A DNA stretch of 64,000 nucleotides from Glycomyces harbinensis. Its GTDB lineage: Bacteria > Actinomycetota > Actinomycetes > Mycobacteriales > Micromonosporaceae. The stretch's first letter is position 1; each line of letters starts with the position of its first letter. The notes under the pieces were generated by a model. It did no database searches and had not been told where the DNA came from. It saw only the letters and a list, made by a program, of their open reading frames with translations. A program made the translations under genes and the position numbers. Positions 18,655 to 63,475 of the stretch are shown one piece after another. The stretch is from NCBI RefSeq assembly GCF_900101745.1, contig NZ_FNAD01000010.1:62001-126000 (forward strand). Direction: 5' to 3'.

Positions 18655-18708
18655 CCTGGCGACCGCGCTGCGGCGCTGAGAGGCATTTGACCGACGGGGG
18701 GAAGAACA

Positions 18709-19947
18709 GTGAAGGGGACCGGCGACGCGACGCCATTGGCCGACTTCCTGTCGAAGGCGCTGGCCCTGGTCCGACCCCTGCCCCCGGTCGACATCGACAT
18801 GACCCAGTCCACCGGCGCCGTCCTGGCCGAGAACGCGGTCAACCCCGGGCCGCTGCCCGCCTTCGACTACGCCGCGATCGACGGCTACGCGTGCGCCGCC
18901 GACGACATCGCCGGCGCCAGCCCCGAACGCGGCGTCGGCCTGAAGGTCCTCGGCGACCTCGCCGCCTCCTCGTGGCGGCCCGTCCGCCTCGTCGCCGGCA
19001 CCTGCTTCTCCGTCGCCGCCGGGGCCGCCCTCCCCGTCGGCGCCGACATCGTCGTGCCCCTCGCCTGGACCGACGAGGGCATGGCGACCGTCGACGTCCG
19101 CCAGGCGCCCCGCCGCGGGCACGGCGTGCGCCGCATGGGCTCCGAACGGCCCGCGGGGGAGATCCTCGCCCACGAGGGCCGCCGCATCACCCCCCAGCTC
19201 GTCGGCCTCCTCGCCGGCGCCGGCATCGCCGACGTCGTCGTGCGGCCCACCCCCCGCGTCGTCGTCATCGCCACCGGCGACGAACTCGTCGACACCGGCC
19301 GGCCCTCCCAGCCCGGCCAGCTCATCGACGTCAACTCCCACCTCGTCACCGCCGCCGCCTCCGAAGCCGGCGCCCACGCCTACCGCGTCGGCATCTGCGA
19401 CGACGAGCCCGACGCGCTCCGCTCCGTCCTCGACGACCAGATCCTCCGCGCCGACCTCGTCATCACCACCGGCGGCACCGGCACCGGCCCCGGCGACATG
19501 GTCCGGCGCACCTTCTCCCGCGACGGCGCCGTCGACTTCGCGCCCATCGCCGTGTACCTCTGCGAGACCATGGGCTTCGGCACCATCGGCCCCGAAGAGG
19601 TCCCCGTCGTATGCCTCCCCGGCGACCCCGTCGCCGCGACCATCGCGTTCGAAGTCATCGCCCGCCCGCTCATCCAGCGGCTCGCCGGCGCCGAACCGGT
19701 TTTCCGGCCCAGCGTGCGCGCCAACCTGACCGAGCCCGTATCCTCACCGAGCGGGCTCAGGGAATTCCGCCCCGTCCGCGTCGCCGAGAGGCGCGGCGGC
19801 GGCTACACGGTCGCCCCGCTGGGATCGGCGTCCTACACCCTCTCCGGGCTCGCCGAGGCCACCGGCCTCATGACGATCGGCGAGAACGCGACCCGGGTGC
19901 CCGCCGGATCGACCGTAGACGTGCTCCTGCTGGACCGGAACCGATGA
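18709..19947 (+). CDS. moeA: Molybdopterin molybdenumtransferase
   Basis: MoeA inserts molybdate into adenylylated molybdopterin at the last step of molybdenum cofactor synthesis. The 412-residue product has the typical N-terminal region (PLPAFDYAAIDGYA) and the catalytic domain motifs ATGDELV and TGGTGTGPGD. The C-terminal beta domain begins near residue 335. The start is a GTG behind GGGGGGAAG. Its TGA stop lies inside ATGA at 19944-19947, which opens the first of three chained mini-ORFs leading to rimJ. Confidence 0.94.
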   Translation: MKGTGDATPLADFLSKALALVRPLPPVDIDMTQSTGAVLAENAVNPGPLPAFDYAAIDGYACAADDIAGASPERGVGLKVLGDLAASSWRPVRLVAGTCFSVAAGAALPVGADIVVPLAWTDEGMATVDVRQAPRRGHGVRRMGSERPAGEILAHEGRRITPQLVGLLAGAGIADVVVRPTPRVVVIATGDELVDTGRPSQPGQLIDVNSHLVTAAASEAGAHAYRVGICDDEPDALRSVLDDQILRADLVITTGGTGTGPGDMVRRTFSRDGAVDFAPIAVYLCETMGFGTIGPEEVPVVCLPGDPVAATIAFEVIARPLIQRLAGAEPVFRPSVRANLTEPVSSPSGLREFRPVRVAERRGGGYTVAPLGSASYTLSGLAEATGLMTIGENATRVPAGSTVDVLLLDRNR

Positions 19948-20036
19948 GCCCGCCGAACCCAATTGCACACGGACGGCGACCTGTGGCCGTCCCGCACCAC
20001 TCGCCATCCGAACCGTCCCCGGGCGGTGACCGATGA
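19944..20036 (+). CDS. Mini-ORF 1 of moeA-rimJ relay
   Basis: The ATG overlaps the moeA stop (ATGA 19944-19947). Thirty codons run without interruption to a TGA that itself lies in the next ATGA (20033-20036). The peptide is Pro/His/Ser-rich and unlike any known domain. Its value is probably in passing ribosomes downstream rather than in the peptide (inference). Confidence 0.4.
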   Translation: MSPPNPIAHGRRPVAVPHHSPSEPSPGGDR

Positions 20037-20086
20037 CCGCCCCCCACGACCCGCCCTCCCACCTGAGGCCGGACGGCCGCCGATGA
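20033..20086 (+). CDS. Mini-ORF 2 of moeA-rimJ relay
   Basis: Seventeen codons begin in the ATGA that ends mini-ORF 1 and stop in the ATGA at 20083-20086. The start context CGATGACCGCC is repeated at mini-ORF 3. Confidence 0.4.
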   Translation: MTAPHDPPSHLRPDGRR

Positions 20087-20118
20087 CCGCCCGCCGCGAT
20101 CTGGACCGAGACCGATGA
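20083..20118 (+). CDS. Mini-ORF 3 of moeA-rimJ relay
   Basis: Eleven codons begin in the ATGA that ends mini-ORF 2 and stop in the ATGA at 20115-20118, whose ATG is the rimJ start. RimJ has no Shine-Dalgarno of its own, so this chain may deliver ribosomes to it by termination-reinitiation. Confidence 0.4.
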   Translation: MTARRDLDRDR

Positions 20119-20777
20119 CCCTTTCCAACCCCGGCTGGCCCGTGCACCTCGAACACGGCGACGTCAGCGTGCGGCCCTTCCGCCGATCCGACGCCGCCCG
20201 CTGGTCCCAGCTGCGCCGCGCCAACGAAGCCTGGCTCGCCCCCTGGGAACCCGGCACCGGCACCACCTGGCACGAAGCCCACTCCCCGGCCGCGTTCCGC
20301 GCGATGCTCCGCGGCCTCAAACGCTCCGTCAAGGACGGCACCAGCTGGCCGCTCGCCGTCTGCTGGCAGGGACAGCTCGCCGGCGGCCTCACCGTCGGCA
20401 ACATCGTGCGCCGCGCCTTCGGCTCGGCCTACGCCGGCTACTGGATCGACCGCGGCCACGCCGGGAAGGGCATCACCGCCACGGCGCTGGCCATGGTCGT
20501 CGACCACGCCCTCACCGTCGGGCGCCTGCACCGCATCGAGGTGAACATCCGGCCCGAGAACGGCCCGTCGAACCGGGTCGCCGAGAAGCTGGGCCTGCGC
20601 CAGGAGGGCCTGCACAAGCGCTACCTCTACATCGACGGCGACTGGCGCGACCACTACGGGTACGCCGTCACCGCCGAGGAGATCGCCACCGAGCGGATGA
20701 TCGACCGGATGGCCCGCCTCGCCCGCGCCGAATCCGAGCGCGGCGCCTCGAAGGACCCCCGCCAGACCTCGCAGTGA
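20115..20777 (+). CDS. rimJ: GNAT acetyltransferase, RimJ family
   Basis: The 220-residue protein belongs to the RimJ/RimL GNAT family, which acetylates protein N-termini (ribosomal S5 in E. coli) or small amines. The N-terminal VRPFRRSDAARW is the usual entry to the fold. The acetyl-CoA loop is seen around YWIDRGHAGKGITATAL, and NIRPENGPSNRVAEKLGLR is the conserved C-terminal motif B. Its place after galU and moeA equals that of rimJ in Mycobacterium. The ATG sits in an ATGA with the preceding mini-ORF. The true acceptor cannot be read from sequence. Confidence 0.85.
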   Translation: MTLSNPGWPVHLEHGDVSVRPFRRSDAARWSQLRRANEAWLAPWEPGTGTTWHEAHSPAAFRAMLRGLKRSVKDGTSWPLAVCWQGQLAGGLTVGNIVRRAFGSAYAGYWIDRGHAGKGITATALAMVVDHALTVGRLHRIEVNIRPENGPSNRVAEKLGLRQEGLHKRYLYIDGDWRDHYGYAVTAEEIATERMIDRMARLARAESERGASKDPRQTSQ

Positions 20778-20783
20778 GGCCCG

Positions 20784-21551
20784 CTAGTTCCTGGCCGTCA
20801 GGATGATCGGCCCGTCCTCGGTGATCGCGACCGTGTGCTCCATGTGGGCGCCCCGCGAGCCGTCGGCGCTGCGCAGCGTCCAGCCGTCGGGGTCGTAGCG
20901 GATCTCGTCGGTGGTCTGGAGGAACCACGGCTCGATCGCGATGACCAGGCCCGGCTTGAGCTTCATGCCCCGGCCCGGCCGCCCGTCGTTGGGGATGTGC
21001 GGGTCGCCGTGCATGGTGCGCCCGACCCCGTGCCCGCCGAACTGGGTGTTCACCCCGTAGCCGTCGCCGCGCGCGACGGTGGCGATCGCGTGGCCGATGT
21101 CGCCGATCTTGTTGCCCACGGTCGCGGCCCCGATCCCCGCCTCGAGCGCCCGCGTCGTGGTGTCGATGAGGCGCAGGTCCTTGTCCGCGGGCGCGCCGAC
21201 CACGACCGACAGGGCCGAGTCCGCGACCCAGCCGTCGACCTCGGCCGCGAAGTCGAAGCTCACCAGGTCGCCGTCCTTGAGCTTGTAGTCGTGCGGGAGG
21301 CCGTGCAGGACCGCGTCGTTCACCGAGGTGCACAGGACCTTCCCGAACGGGCCGGCGCCGAAGGACGGGGCGTAGTCCACGTAGCAGGAGACCGCGCCGG
21401 CCTCCTTGATGCGGCGGGCCACCAGTTCGTCGAGTTCGAGCAGGTTCATGCCGACGTCGGCGACGCGCGACAGCTCGGTGAGCGTGTCGGCGACGAACCG
21501 CCCGGCGGGGCGCATCGCCTCGATCTCGGCGGGGGAGTACAGCTCGATCAT
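20784..21551 (-). CDS. map: Methionine aminopeptidase, type I
   Basis: MetAP removes the initiator methionine from new proteins. The 255-residue product has the five metal ligands: the two Asp in the VDGWVADSA stretch, His in GGHGVGRTMHG, Glu in AIEPWF and Glu in HMEHTVAI. The substrate-side HGLPHD loop is also present. The ATG at 21551 has GAGAGG upstream; the frame extends eight codons further without support. It is convergent with rimJ and divergent from a small HTH gene. Confidence 0.95.
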   Translation of the reverse strand: MIELYSPAEIEAMRPAGRFVADTLTELSRVADVGMNLLELDELVARRIKEAGAVSCYVDYAPSFGAGPFGKVLCTSVNDAVLHGLPHDYKLKDGDLVSFDFAAEVDGWVADSALSVVVGAPADKDLRLIDTTTRALEAGIGAATVGNKIGDIGHAIATVARGDGYGVNTQFGGHGVGRTMHGDPHIPNDGRPGRGMKLKPGLVIAIEPWFLQTTDEIRYDPDGWTLRSADGSRGAHMEHTVAITEDGPIILTARN

Positions 21552-24812: not shown

Positions 24813-25968
24813 CGTGGCAGTAGATTGCCACATGGGCTTCGCCCACTCGGGTCGCCACTAGCGTTGCCTCGTTCGGGCCCTTGAGCTTCAGTTGTTTTCG
24901 CAGCTCGGCCGGGTCGATCCCGGTGCCCCGTTGTTTGATCGTCAAGCGGCCGATCCCGCGTTCTGCAAGTAGCGACCTCAGCTTCTTCGGGTGCAGCGGC
25001 CAGACCTCCTCGACCTTCCACGCCCTCGCGAACGGGCTCTCCTTCAGCTCGTCGCCGTACAGGTAGGCGATGGTCTCGTTCGCCGTGTGGGCTTCCAACC
25101 GCTCCGCCAACTCGGCCACCAAACCCGCCCGGATCACCGCTCCGTCCGGCTCGTAGAGGTACGCCGCGACCTCGCCGACCACGGCCTTCTCCTCGCCTTC
25201 TCCGGTCAGCTCGTGCCACTCGCCCGCCTTGCAGACGCTCGCCCTCCGTCTGACCTCCGCGGCCTCGCCCAGCCACAGGCACGCCTCGACCACGTCCCGG
25301 TCCACCGAGACCCATTCCGCCTCGGCCCCTTCCGGAATCCACTCATGCCCCACCCCAGGGCCCAGTTTCACCGCCGCGAACCTCGCGCCCGCCAGGTGCT
25401 CCAGCAACCGGTCCAACGGCGGCGAATACGCGGCCGGGTTGAAGTTCCGCCCCGCGCCCGAACGCCTCGCCGGATCCGCGAAGGCCGCCTCCAGCAGGGG
25501 CGCCTGCAACGCGTCTCCCACCCTGACTTCGACCGACACCCCTGCCGCCTCGGCGTTCGCCCTCGCGTACGCGGCCGTCTCCTCGCTCATGTCCACGGCC
25601 TCGACCCGCAGCCCCGCCTCCGCGAACGCCAGCGCCTCCGTGCCGAGCCCGCAGCACAGGTCCGTCACCTCGCCCGCGCTCCGCGCGAACCTCGCCGCCC
25701 GCCGCCGGGCCACCACCCACCGCGTGGCCTGCTCCAGGCCCGCCCTCGTGAAGTAGAGCCGCTCCGCGCGCTCGCCGAACTTGCCCCTCGCGTGGACCCG
25801 AAGGTCCGCCAGCGTCAGGGCCGCCGCCGCCATCGCCGGGTCCACGCCCGCCTTCCGCAGCGTCAGCGGAGCCCGGCCGCCGTCCTCCCGCAATGCCTTC
25901 TCGGCCCTCCGCTGGAGGTCGTCATCGGCTCTCAGGGCTTCGAGCAGGCTGGTGTCCACGCGTCTCAT
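24778..25968 (-). CDS. SAM-dependent methyltransferase with THUMP-like C-terminal domain
   Basis: The 396-residue protein has a class I methyltransferase core: the SAM-binding VTDLCCGLGTEALAFAEAG near residue 100 is followed by VEAVDMSEETAAYARANAE. The catalytic-type loop reads ADPARRSGAGR. A C-terminal THUMP-like region (about 290-390) holds WPLHPKKLRSLLAERGIGRLTIKQRG across two blocks. This combination is found in a widespread actinobacterial family whose target is probably RNA, but the substrate is not known to me. The 3' end overlaps the toxin gene tail to tail. Confidence 0.85.
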   Translation of the reverse strand: MRRVDTSLLEALRADDDLQRRAEKALREDGGRAPLTLRKAGVDPAMAAAALTLADLRVHARGKFGERAERLYFTRAGLEQATRWVVARRRAARFARSAGEVTDLCCGLGTEALAFAEAGLRVEAVDMSEETAAYARANAEAAGVSVEVRVGDALQAPLLEAAFADPARRSGAGRNFNPAAYSPPLDRLLEHLAGARFAAVKLGPGVGHEWIPEGAEAEWVSVDRDVVEACLWLGEAAEVRRRASVCKAGEWHELTGEGEEKAVVGEVAAYLYEPDGAVIRAGLVAELAERLEAHTANETIAYLYGDELKESPFARAWKVEEVWPLHPKKLRSLLAERGIGRLTIKQRGTGIDPAELRKQLKLKGPNEATLVATRVGEAHVAIYCHATSRREASGTP

Positions 25969-28459: not shown

Positions 28460-28569
28460 ACTTTTACGCCCGCTTTCGAAGGCGTTGCCCGGGTATCGAA
28501 GCCCGAACTCCCGGAGGCGTTCCGGACCGCCCGCCCCGCCCTCCCGTTCGGGTAGCGGACCTTCGGGTC

Positions 28570-61435: not shown

Positions 61436-63475
61436 GTGCCTTCTGACAGCACCGCCGAAGCCGAACTCCAGGCCGAACTCGACAACCACGAGCGCGCCCG
61501 CCGCTACACGGCCGCCATGCGCGCGGCCACCACCGAGATCCACGCGGCCTACGCCGGCGAGGTCGACGAAGGCGGCAAGAGCCGCGCCTACGGCGACGTG
61601 GGGCCCGACAAGCTCTTCGGCTGGGCCATGGCCAACTACACCGTCCCGCGCATGGCCGACCTGACCGACCGCGACATCGCCCTGTTCTTCGGCCGCATCT
61701 GGATGGACGACGGCGAGGACTTCCACATCGGCCGCCGCCACATCCGCGACGAGCACGGCGACCCGCTCGTCCTCGACTGGCGCGCACCGCTCTCCGAGAG
61801 CTTCTACCGCGCCTCGGCCCACGACCGCAAGGACGTCGCCCGACGCCGCCGCTTCGGCTTCCAGGGCGCCCGCATCACCGGCTTCGAGGACGAGAACCTG
61901 CTGCTCGGAGAGGCGTTCGCCTCCGACATCCTCACCGAGGAGATCGAGCGCCCCCGCACCGGCCCGATGCGCGACATCGCCGCGACCATCCAGCCCGAGC
62001 AGGACGAGCTCATCCGCCGCGAGGCCGCAACGAACCTGTGCGTCCAGGGCGCCCCCGGCACCGGCAAGACCGCCGTCGGCCTCCACCGCGCCGCCTGGCT
62101 CCTCTACAACTACACCGAGAAGCTCGACAAGGCCGGCGTCCTCGTCGTCGGCCCCAACGAGGGCTTCCTCTCCTACATCTCGGGCGTCCTCCCCACCCTC
62201 GGCGAGTCCTCCGTCTGGCAGGTCACCGTCCACCAGCTCACCGGCGCCCACACCGCCACCGCCGTCGACTCCCGCGAAGCGGCCCTCGTCAAGCACGACG
62301 CCCGCATGGCCCTCGTGTGCGAACGGGCCGTCTGGGGCCACGTCGGCACCGTCGCCGCAGCAGGCATCACCCCCGACGAAGGCCTCCTCATCGCCGACGG
62401 CGGCTGGCGCTGGCGCCTCGGCCTCAACTATCTCGAGACGGCGGTCGCCAACGCCCGCAAGCACACCCGCACCTACACGGCCGGGCGCAAGGCCGTGGAG
62501 GACGCCATCGTCCAAGGCGCGCGCCGCCAGGCCGAGATCCGCTCCGGCCACTCGCCCGACTCGAAGTGGGCCACCAGGATCAAGCGCGTCCCCGCCGTCC
62601 AGGCGTTCCTCGACGCGGTGTGGCCCAAGCTCAACACCAAGACCGTGATGAAGAAGCTCTACGGCGACGCCGACTTCCGCGCCGACGCCACCCGCGGCAT
62701 CCTCACCGAGGACGAGGCCGCGCTCCTGAGCGGGAAGCCCGCCAAGCCGACCGCGGCGGACCTCCTCATCACCGACGAGATCGAGTCGTACCTCAAACTC
62801 CGTGAACCCTCGGAGTCCTTCGGCCACATCGTCATCGACGAAGCGCAGGACCTCTCCCCGATGCAGTGCCGCGTCATCGCCCGCCGCTCCGGCAAGGGCT
62901 CGGTGACCGTCCTCGGCGACCTCGCCCAGGGCACCACCCCCTGGGCCGCCTCCTCCTGGACCGACCAGATGCGCCACCTCGGCAAGGACCGGGTCGAGCA
63001 CACCGAGCTGACCACCGGCTTCCGCGTCCCCGCGGTCATCATCGAACTCGCCAACCGGGTCCTGCCCCACCTCGGCGTCGACGTCGCCCCCGCCCGCTCG
63101 ATCCGCTCCGACGGCTCGCTCGACCGGGTCGAGGACCCCGACCTCCCCGCGGCCGCCAGGGAAGCGGTCGGCAAGGCCCTCGCCGAGGAAGGCCTCGTCG
63201 GCGTCATCGCCGCCGACGAGCGGGCCGAGGCCCTGCGCACCCTGCTCGCGGGGACCGACCGCGTCGAAGTGGTCGCCGCGAGCCTCGCCAAGGGCCTCGA
63301 GTTCGACCACGTGGTGGTCGTCGAACCCGCCGAGATCGTCGAGGCCCCCGCGTCCGCAGGCCCCTCCTCCTCCGACCGGGTCGGCCTGCGCCACCTGTAC
63401 GTCGCGCTCACCCGCGCCGTCTCGCGCCTCACCGTCGTCCACGCCCGGCCGCTCCCGCCCGAGATGGCGGCCTGA
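61436..63475 (+). CDS. UvrD-like helicase of the HelD/HelR group
   Basis: The 679-residue SF1 protein resembles actinobacterial HelD/HelR, which enters RNA polymerase, removes it from DNA and in some species confers rifamycin tolerance. An N-terminal helical segment (about 5-45) precedes the family-specific YFGR-like block (DIALFFGRIWMDDGEDFHIGRR over two blocks, then VLDWRAPLSESFYRAS). Walker A is GAPGTGKTAVGLHRA, Walker B is VIDEAQDLSPMQ and the late motif is LYVALTRAVSRLTVVH. GGGGGAG precedes the GTG start. No rifamycin-associated inverted repeat is evident upstream. Confidence 0.9.
   Translation: MPSDSTAEAELQAELDNHERARRYTAAMRAATTEIHAAYAGEVDEGGKSRAYGDVGPDKLFGWAMANYTVPRMADLTDRDIALFFGRIWMDDGEDFHIGRRHIRDEHGDPLVLDWRAPLSESFYRASAHDRKDVARRRRFGFQGARITGFEDENLLLGEAFASDILTEEIERPRTGPMRDIAATIQPEQDELIRREAATNLCVQGAPGTGKTAVGLHRAAWLLYNYTEKLDKAGVLVVGPNEGFLSYISGVLPTLGESSVWQVTVHQLTGAHTATAVDSREAALVKHDARMALVCERAVWGHVGTVAAAGITPDEGLLIADGGWRWRLGLNYLETAVANARKHTRTYTAGRKAVEDAIVQGARRQAEIRSGHSPDSKWATRIKRVPAVQAFLDAVWPKLNTKTVMKKLYGDADFRADATRGILTEDEAALLSGKPAKPTAADLLITDEIESYLKLREPSESFGHIVIDEAQDLSPMQCRVIARRSGKGSVTVLGDLAQGTTPWAASSWTDQMRHLGKDRVEHTELTTGFRVPAVIIELANRVLPHLGVDVAPARSIRSDGSLDRVEDPDLPAAAREAVGKALAEEGLVGVIAADERAEALRTLLAGTDRVEVVAASLAKGLEFDHVVVVEPAEIVEAPASAGPSSSDRVGLRHLYVALTRAVSRLTVVHARPLPPEMAA

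Follow-up and report, generated by a model that had tools for sequence, protein, structure and literature searches.

The 167-nt gap between a moeA-like and a rimJ-like gene of Glycomyces harbinensis, a member of a genus of soil bacteria, is spanned by three mini-ORFs, and from the comparison of related genomes we put at roughly three in four the probability that they form a relay of tiny cistrons keeping rimJ translationally coupled to moeA/glp via termination-reinitiation. The locus lies in the window, by which we mean the whole stretch of 64,000 nucleotides analysed here, and all its features are on the forward strand. The moeA-like gene (18709..19947; Pfam MoeA_N, MoCF_biosynth and MoeA_C), for whose product the top NCBIfam model is Glp (gephyrin-like divisome protein) at 405 bits, below the curated cut-off of 475, ends in the ATGA of junction 1 (19944..19947), which also opens mini-ORF 1 (MSPPNPIAHGRRPVAVPHHSPSEPSPGGDR, 30 codons, 19944..20036). 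Junction 2 (ATGA, 20033-20036) opens mini-ORF 2 (MTAPHDPPSHLRPDGRR, 17 codons, 20033..20086) and junction 3 (ATGA, 20083-20086) opens mini-ORF 3 (MTARRDLDRDR, 11 codons, 20083..20118), the stop of which falls in junction 4 (ATGA, 20115..20118) together with the start of a rimJ-like GNAT acetyltransferase gene (20115..20777, Pfam PF13302) that has no Shine-Dalgarno sequence upstream. The chain had been proposed in a sequence-only reading of this DNA, and the bases from the moeA stop to the rimJ ATG at 20115, including all four ATGA overlaps, are exactly as it claimed. It had also pointed out that the ATG-to-ATG distances of 89, 50 and 32 are all 2 modulo 3, which is true but does not amount to three additional coincidences, because every mini-ORF ends in ATGA. 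A stop/start overlap or a spacing of a few bases between co-directional reading frames, one criterion of coupling, is present at each of the four junctions. The 12-base repeat CGATGACCGCCC occurs twice in the window, across junction 2 (20031..20042) and across junction 3 (20081..20092), and two copies were found in 0 of 100 shuffles; the tail of mini-ORF 3 is similar to the moeA C-terminus, LLDRNR.

An unbroken chain appeared in 8.1% of 20,000 Markov-resampled 167-nt gaps with the outer ATGAs fixed, nearly always with three mini-ORFs, and in 28% when the gap length was drawn at random between 20 and 200 nt. A simple gene caller, run on 432 kb of the source genome (window included), yielded 194 co-directional pairs no more than 400 nt apart; 52 of them overlap directly and 11 are joined through one or more mini-ORFs, in some cases via weak starts. 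Taken alone, the single moeA-rimJ chain is weak evidence, being only mildly unlikely; the weight for the putative relay comes from the comparison across genomes.

All 22 Glycomyces genomes examined carry moeA directly upstream of rimJ, at 14 different gap lengths ranging from -4 to 196 nt. Under a rule that each stop be followed by a start (ATG, GTG or TTG) at -1 (ATGA type) or +2 (TGATG type), and with only the conserved rimJ start counted as a landing site, the chain reaches rimJ exactly in 21 of the 22 genomes, over 13 of the 14 distinct gap lengths, and uses ATGA or TGATG junctions exclusively. The check suggested earlier, that relatives should conserve phase rather than sequence, was thus passed in these 21. 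The number of mini-ORFs is zero in one genome, one in 11, two in eight and three in one, the source genome, which has the highest step count of all. Individual loci illustrate how the chain is kept. In L017 an inner ATG is lost and the 142-nt gap forms a single 49-codon ORF with its stop on the rimJ ATGA; in L007, the closest to the window, both inner ATGA sites are out of phase and are read over by one 67-codon ORF, the stop of which again lies on the rimJ ATGA; in L010, TGATG replaces ATGA with the frame unchanged. The sole broken relay is that of L021 (its gap is identical to that of L047, Glycomyces sp. L485), where rimJ also lacks a Shine-Dalgarno sequence; compared with L016, the T run is longer (six T in the L021 gap) and the gap is longer by two bases. 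An unbroken chain that is nearly universal despite changing length and sequence suggests that ribosomes are handed along the mini-ORFs.

On a quick two-gene tree of moeA and rimJ (the window plus 21 named loci; 5 of 19 inner branches open), in which G. amatae (L034) is nearest to the window at 94% identity, parsimony requires at least 13 changes of gap length between moeA and rimJ, with one loss of the relay. The neighbouring galU-moeA gap served as a control: at the same loci it underwent at least 11 length changes and at least 9 phase changes by parsimony, and the gene downstream of it, moeA, has a strong Shine-Dalgarno sequence in the window (-9.7 kcal/mol). Read as length changes in phase, these counts give 12 of 13 between moeA and rimJ (P=1.7e-5 at a chance of 1/3) and 2 of 11 in the control gap (Fisher P=5e-4), both P values being computed from a table entered by hand from the parsimony counts, with each change treated as one event. 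Spacing or frame kept in evolution, a further criterion of termination-reinitiation coupling, is thus found at moeA-rimJ, unlike the neighbouring gap. In the galU-moeA gap (18655-18708), a G run before the moeA start is kept in 22 loci, while length and phase vary.

The claim that rimJ lacks a Shine-Dalgarno sequence was confirmed, the predicted duplex with the anti-Shine-Dalgarno reaching -3.0 kcal/mol, compared with the -9.7 of moeA; the median for starts at overlap junctions is -7.4 kcal/mol (n=249, five Glycomyces genomes). No Shine-Dalgarno sequence was found before rimJ in any of the 22 Glycomyces genomes (duplex energies of -3.0 to -3.5). According to the passages cited, a spacing of ~20 nt almost abolishes coupling (PMC10666635), and a downstream ORF without a Shine-Dalgarno sequence at UAAUG or AUGA is read solely by ribosomes arriving from the upstream ORF (PMC9955659). 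Little coupling would therefore be expected for a rimJ gene that lacks such a sequence and lies 167 nt away, were it not for a means of conveying ribosomes over the gap, which the chain would provide. In the mechanism we propose, a ribosome finishing moeA at UGA would restart on the overlapping AUG, read the mini-ORF, end in the next AUGA and repeat the cycle until the start of rimJ, which would depend on the ribosomes so delivered. The junction would have lengthened in Glycomyces, probably via tandem duplication over the stop/start overlap followed by indels; nearly all surviving changes of the gap leave the chain unbroken, for which selection is the probable cause, and it is the continuity of the frame, more than the peptide, that would be under selection.

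An alignment of the seven codons that immediately precede rimJ, anchored at the stop in 20 genomes, shows 854 nonsynonymous and 106 synonymous differences in 1,330 pairwise codon comparisons. Nine related genomes retain part of the LDRDR tail (21 synonymous and 35 nonsynonymous differences over 216 for the last 6 codons). A peptide function, or a regulatory leader peptide, was considered and rejected, as most of the rimJ-adjacent mini-ORF is unconserved beyond this partly kept tail. An RNA element in the gap found no support: no Rfam family matched within 19000-20800, and the fold energy of the window gap is ordinary (z = -1.37).

These results also bear on a regulatory relay in which the number or the sequence of the mini-ORFs sets the MoeA:RimJ ratio, in the manner of leader-peptide control. 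We regard this as improbable, although it stands better than the other alternatives. Ribosomes would be expected to be lost at each reinitiation step, such that three steps would lower rimJ output, and none of the other 22 genomes has as many steps as the source genome; on the other hand, parsimony on the tree requires at least 6 changes in mini-ORF number (broken genome excluded), and neither the largely unconserved peptide nor the Rfam search and folding energy point to a regulatory device. The sequence-only reading had the chain meter ribosomes into rimJ, which finds no support here: the count is 0, 1, 2 or 3 depending on the species, and since it varies, a fixed attenuation is not conserved. 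What survives of that reading is the frame-constrained chain, the absence of a Shine-Dalgarno sequence before rimJ and growth by duplication. Taken together, the evidence fits preserved coupling better than dosing.

To place the gap in a wider context, we considered 88 other genomes of the family, the best by similarity of 228 non-Glycomyces genomes searched (8 loci plus 80 fetched). Under a test that favours success, since any in-frame start close to that of the aligned gene was accepted as the end of the chain, 59 of these best 88 of 228 have a direct moeA-rimJ overlap and 12 a chain of at least one mini-ORF; no chain was found in 8 with a gap of at least 5 nt and in 8 with a gap of 0-3 nt, and one was unscorable. 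Gaps of at least 5 nt thus occur in 20 of the 88, split into 12 with and 8 without a chain, and a predicted Shine-Dalgarno sequence of -6.4 kcal/mol or stronger precedes the candidate rimJ start in 7 of those 8, as well as in several of the chains. Because the direct ATGA or GTGA overlap is the commonest form among the best 88 of 228, it is probably the ancestral arrangement. In Salinispora, three loci (L060, L061 and L065) keep a 16-codon chain across a 43-nt gap and three (L059, L083 and L102) have a 42-nt gap with the chain broken; a strong Shine-Dalgarno sequence precedes rimJ in all six. In two other members of the family (L159 and L178), repeated peptide units make up the mini-ORF between moeA and rimJ, which has 66 and 33 codons, respectively, and is in phase.

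Growth through a duplicated stop/start junction, also suggested earlier, is upheld in the window and in L007, L013, L016 and L017, where the 15 bases immediately upstream of rimJ agree at 12 positions with the 15 that precede the moeA stop (null mean 5.2). No resemblance between these two junctions was seen in the five short-gap genomes or in L011 and L024, and in the 16 chains of other genera tested junction similarity was mostly at background level. A duplication origin appears to hold for part of the Glycomyces cases, and we claim it for Glycomyces alone.

The signature of duplication is clearer in the nuo operon, examined because the source genome has a chain at the junction we take to be nuoJ-K (the names nuoC-D, nuoD-E, nuoG-H and nuoL-M are likewise presumed). 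Thirteen junctions were compared over 22 genomes under the lenient landing rule of the family test, which was also applied to the control pairs, and 278 cells out of 286 were scorable. Among the 15 lengthened ones (gap >14 nt), a single mini-ORF spans the gap in phase in 14: 8 of 9 at nuoC-D, 2 of 2 at nuoD-E, 1 of 1 at nuoG-H, 2 of 2 at nuoJ-K and 1 of 1 at nuoL-M. The sole failure, at nuoC-D of G008 (87-nt gap), misses the phase by one base. The junctions lengthened by single in-phase mini-ORFs are those of loci L330-L347 and, in the source genome (G000), lie outside the window at 40-56 kb of contig C19. The moeA pair, P3 (nuoJ-K) and P4 had been picked for a chain in the source genome and are biased accordingly; the other nuo junctions and the survey described below are free of that bias. 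In 14 of the 15 lengthened cells, the similarity between the ends of the gap exceeds that of 95% of unrelated junction pairs, the exception being the source genome's own nuoJ-K, and junction copies are seen in G017 nuoD-E (GGCTGCGACCGATGAGCT twice) and G003 nuoG-H (GGCGGTCGAGGCATGAACGA twice). The last 10 codons of the nuoC-D mini-ORFs differ by 65 synonymous and 50 nonsynonymous changes among 8 genomes; these tails, better conserved than the rimJ-adjacent one, look like a copy of the nuoC end, and the peptide may have a role there. The nuoC-D insert varies in presence and absence among close relatives, and in most carriers its mini-ORF contains a GC-rich hairpin, recognized by eye, with the core GGGGTGGCG.AGCCCC (for example, at survey position 311974 of G013).

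Such a hairpin would fit an origin from MIRU-like mobile or repetitive elements, which might have landed in (A/G)TGA sites and brought the phase with them as a property of the element. Both ends of the inserts are stop/start overlaps, as is the downstream end of a MIRU in the account cited (PMC12548453). We nevertheless consider this quite unlikely: the hairpin core was found nowhere beyond the nuoC-D junction in 1.7 Mb of five genomes, the inserts at different junctions are, by eye, mutually dissimilar, and a dispersed element was rejected as the source of the moeA-rimJ gap by a whole-genome search with it, in which the full-length gap matched its own position and every other match was short (best E 0.006).

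The survey of five genomes included 249 overlap junctions (orthologues counted per genome) and 464 comparison rows, 34 of which had a gap of at least 15 nt: 20 with a chain, one with a conserved start but without a chain and 13 lacking a start where extrapolation placed it. For 11 of the 13, an ORF of more than 200 codons opens at the overlap and was read as the downstream gene; these were excluded from the expansion count. The 20 chain rows represent 8 different cells (genome and junction) distributed over 5 junctions, and 6 of these cells are already in the nuo count; the survey adds one case with two mini-ORFs. A chain in G013 (gap 28) seems to have arisen by splitting off the first codons of the downstream gene itself, not by duplication. 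Elsewhere, a 76-nt gap at 61546>60473 holds a 28-codon chain opened by TTG in G003, G013 and G005; in the source genome the same gap has 77 nt and the chain is lost by one base (G000 contig C19 60473-62719, partly outside the window). Lengthening without a chain was seen at 72019>72576 in G003, at 25449>24655 in G000, at 100790>102020 in G000 and G005, at 67334>66310 in G003 (other genomes overlap by 8) and at 28535>29192, where four genomes have a common 36-nt gap. For control pair P1, under the same permissive landing rule as in the family test, the 7 loci yielded two one-mini-ORF chains (one of them in the source genome), one alternative overlapping start and three failures, with the upstream gene absent from one; for P2, the downstream partner was unmatched by the script in 8 of 9 loci. 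Adjacent genes that by eye resemble ABC permeases (L280 and L289) overlap directly in 12 of 14 loci and are separated by an in-phase mini-ORF of 41 codons in G000 or 95 codons in G003. Counterexamples notwithstanding, the same process of junction lengthening appears to have acted at other coupled Glycomyces junctions, such as those of nuo.

The comparison also bears on chance as an explanation. GC-rich DNA has few stops, and the ATGA ends of moeA and rimJ might be fortuitous and the inner ATGAs incidental; the frequencies reported above for resampled gaps (8% and 28%) and for co-directional pairs in 432 kb (11 of 194) show that one chain could arise in this way. Chance is, however, strongly disfavoured by the 21 intact chains in 22 genomes with 14 gap lengths, by the 12 of 13 length changes in phase compared with 2 of 11 in the neighbouring gap and by the 14 of 15 nuo junctions in phase. 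Least probable of all is a -1 frameshift at each AUGA giving fused MoeA-mini-RimJ products, which would obey an identical phase rule and has a parallel in uPPE2-PPE2 of Mycobacterium tuberculosis, where the cited passages describe stop suppression and frameshifting beside reinitiation at AUGA (PMC11260477), but would require several successive shifts in the source genome and sits poorly with a mostly unconserved peptide.

Beyond the relay at moeA-rimJ, we tentatively propose, at somewhat less than even odds, that coupled junctions lengthen through a frame filter. Tandem duplications that include a stop/start overlap would be retained chiefly at lengths of 2 mod 3, since only at these would the copy become a mini-cistron that passes ribosomes on, and intergenic regions would fill with serial mini-cistrons selected mainly for continuity, the peptide hardly mattering, and would thereby supply short translated ORFs. 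The three-step chain of the window would be a long product of this process, and chains like it would be expected at any tightly coupled junction that lengthens, in and beyond Glycomyces. Related species with 0, 1, 2 or 3 mini-ORFs, and one with a broken chain, at the same junction constitute natural replicates, which make it testable whether intercistronic short ORFs merely carry ribosomes. If so, a peptide function need not be invoked for many of the short ORFs that ribosome profiling detects between operon genes, annotators should be prepared for serial mini-cistrons where junctions are coupled, and the in-phase fraction of lengthened junctions would measure, per gene pair, how essential coupling is.

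Termination-reinitiation is described, in the passages cited, at ATGA and TGATG overlaps, the common -4 and -1 overlaps of co-directional genes (PMC6728339, PMC10666635, PMC12548453), and ribosomes are presumably handed over at moeA-rimJ as in these known systems. The difference is that here 0-3 mini-cistrons stand between two real genes, with the frame kept while length and sequence turn over. The closest precedent is provided by the mycobacterial MIRUs (Supply 1997, cited in PMC12548453), in which a short ORF is inserted at a start codon and is coupled downstream through a -4 overlap. This anatomy is matched here, the mini-ORF stretch being apparently an insertion, as judged from relatives with a direct overlap. 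MIRUs are, according to the same source, repetitive and apparently mobile (PMC12548453), whereas the moeA-rimJ gap is not dispersed and appears to be partly a local junction duplication. A short ORF is likewise linked to translation of the next gene in iraD (PMC5574718), in uPPE2-PPE2 of M. tuberculosis (PMC11260477), in Salmonella mgtQ, located between mgtC and mgtB (PMC8092293), and in the axe-txe minigene (PMC8708949). As far as the cited passages go, each of these is one gene-specific regulatory short ORF, whereas the mini-ORFs described here are serial, variable in number and mostly unconserved as peptides. In Enterobacteriaceae, ~13% of the intergenic small ORFs that run in the same direction as the downstream gene stop within 10 nt of its start, and ~37% of those overlap that start by 1-4 nt (PMC11188072); they were studied as possible coding microproteins, and the cited portions describe neither chains nor sequence-free conservation of phase. 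In bicistronic designs and short-ORF boosters, a dispensable short ORF similarly brings ribosomes to a downstream start (PMC13255528, PMC12548453); as described in the passages cited, these are engineered, with the booster carrying a strong ribosome-binding site (PMC13255528), whereas the present case is natural and rimJ lacks a Shine-Dalgarno sequence. The sources cited already describe overlap coupling, coupling through a single short ORF and the insertion of MIRUs at start codons with a -4 coupling (PMC12548453). In the literature searched, which included few subscription journals, neither serial mini-ORF relays nor a frame-filtered duplication of junctions was described, and what appears to be new is a series of mini-ORFs whose frame is conserved across a genus over changes in number and sequence, linked to duplication of the junction.
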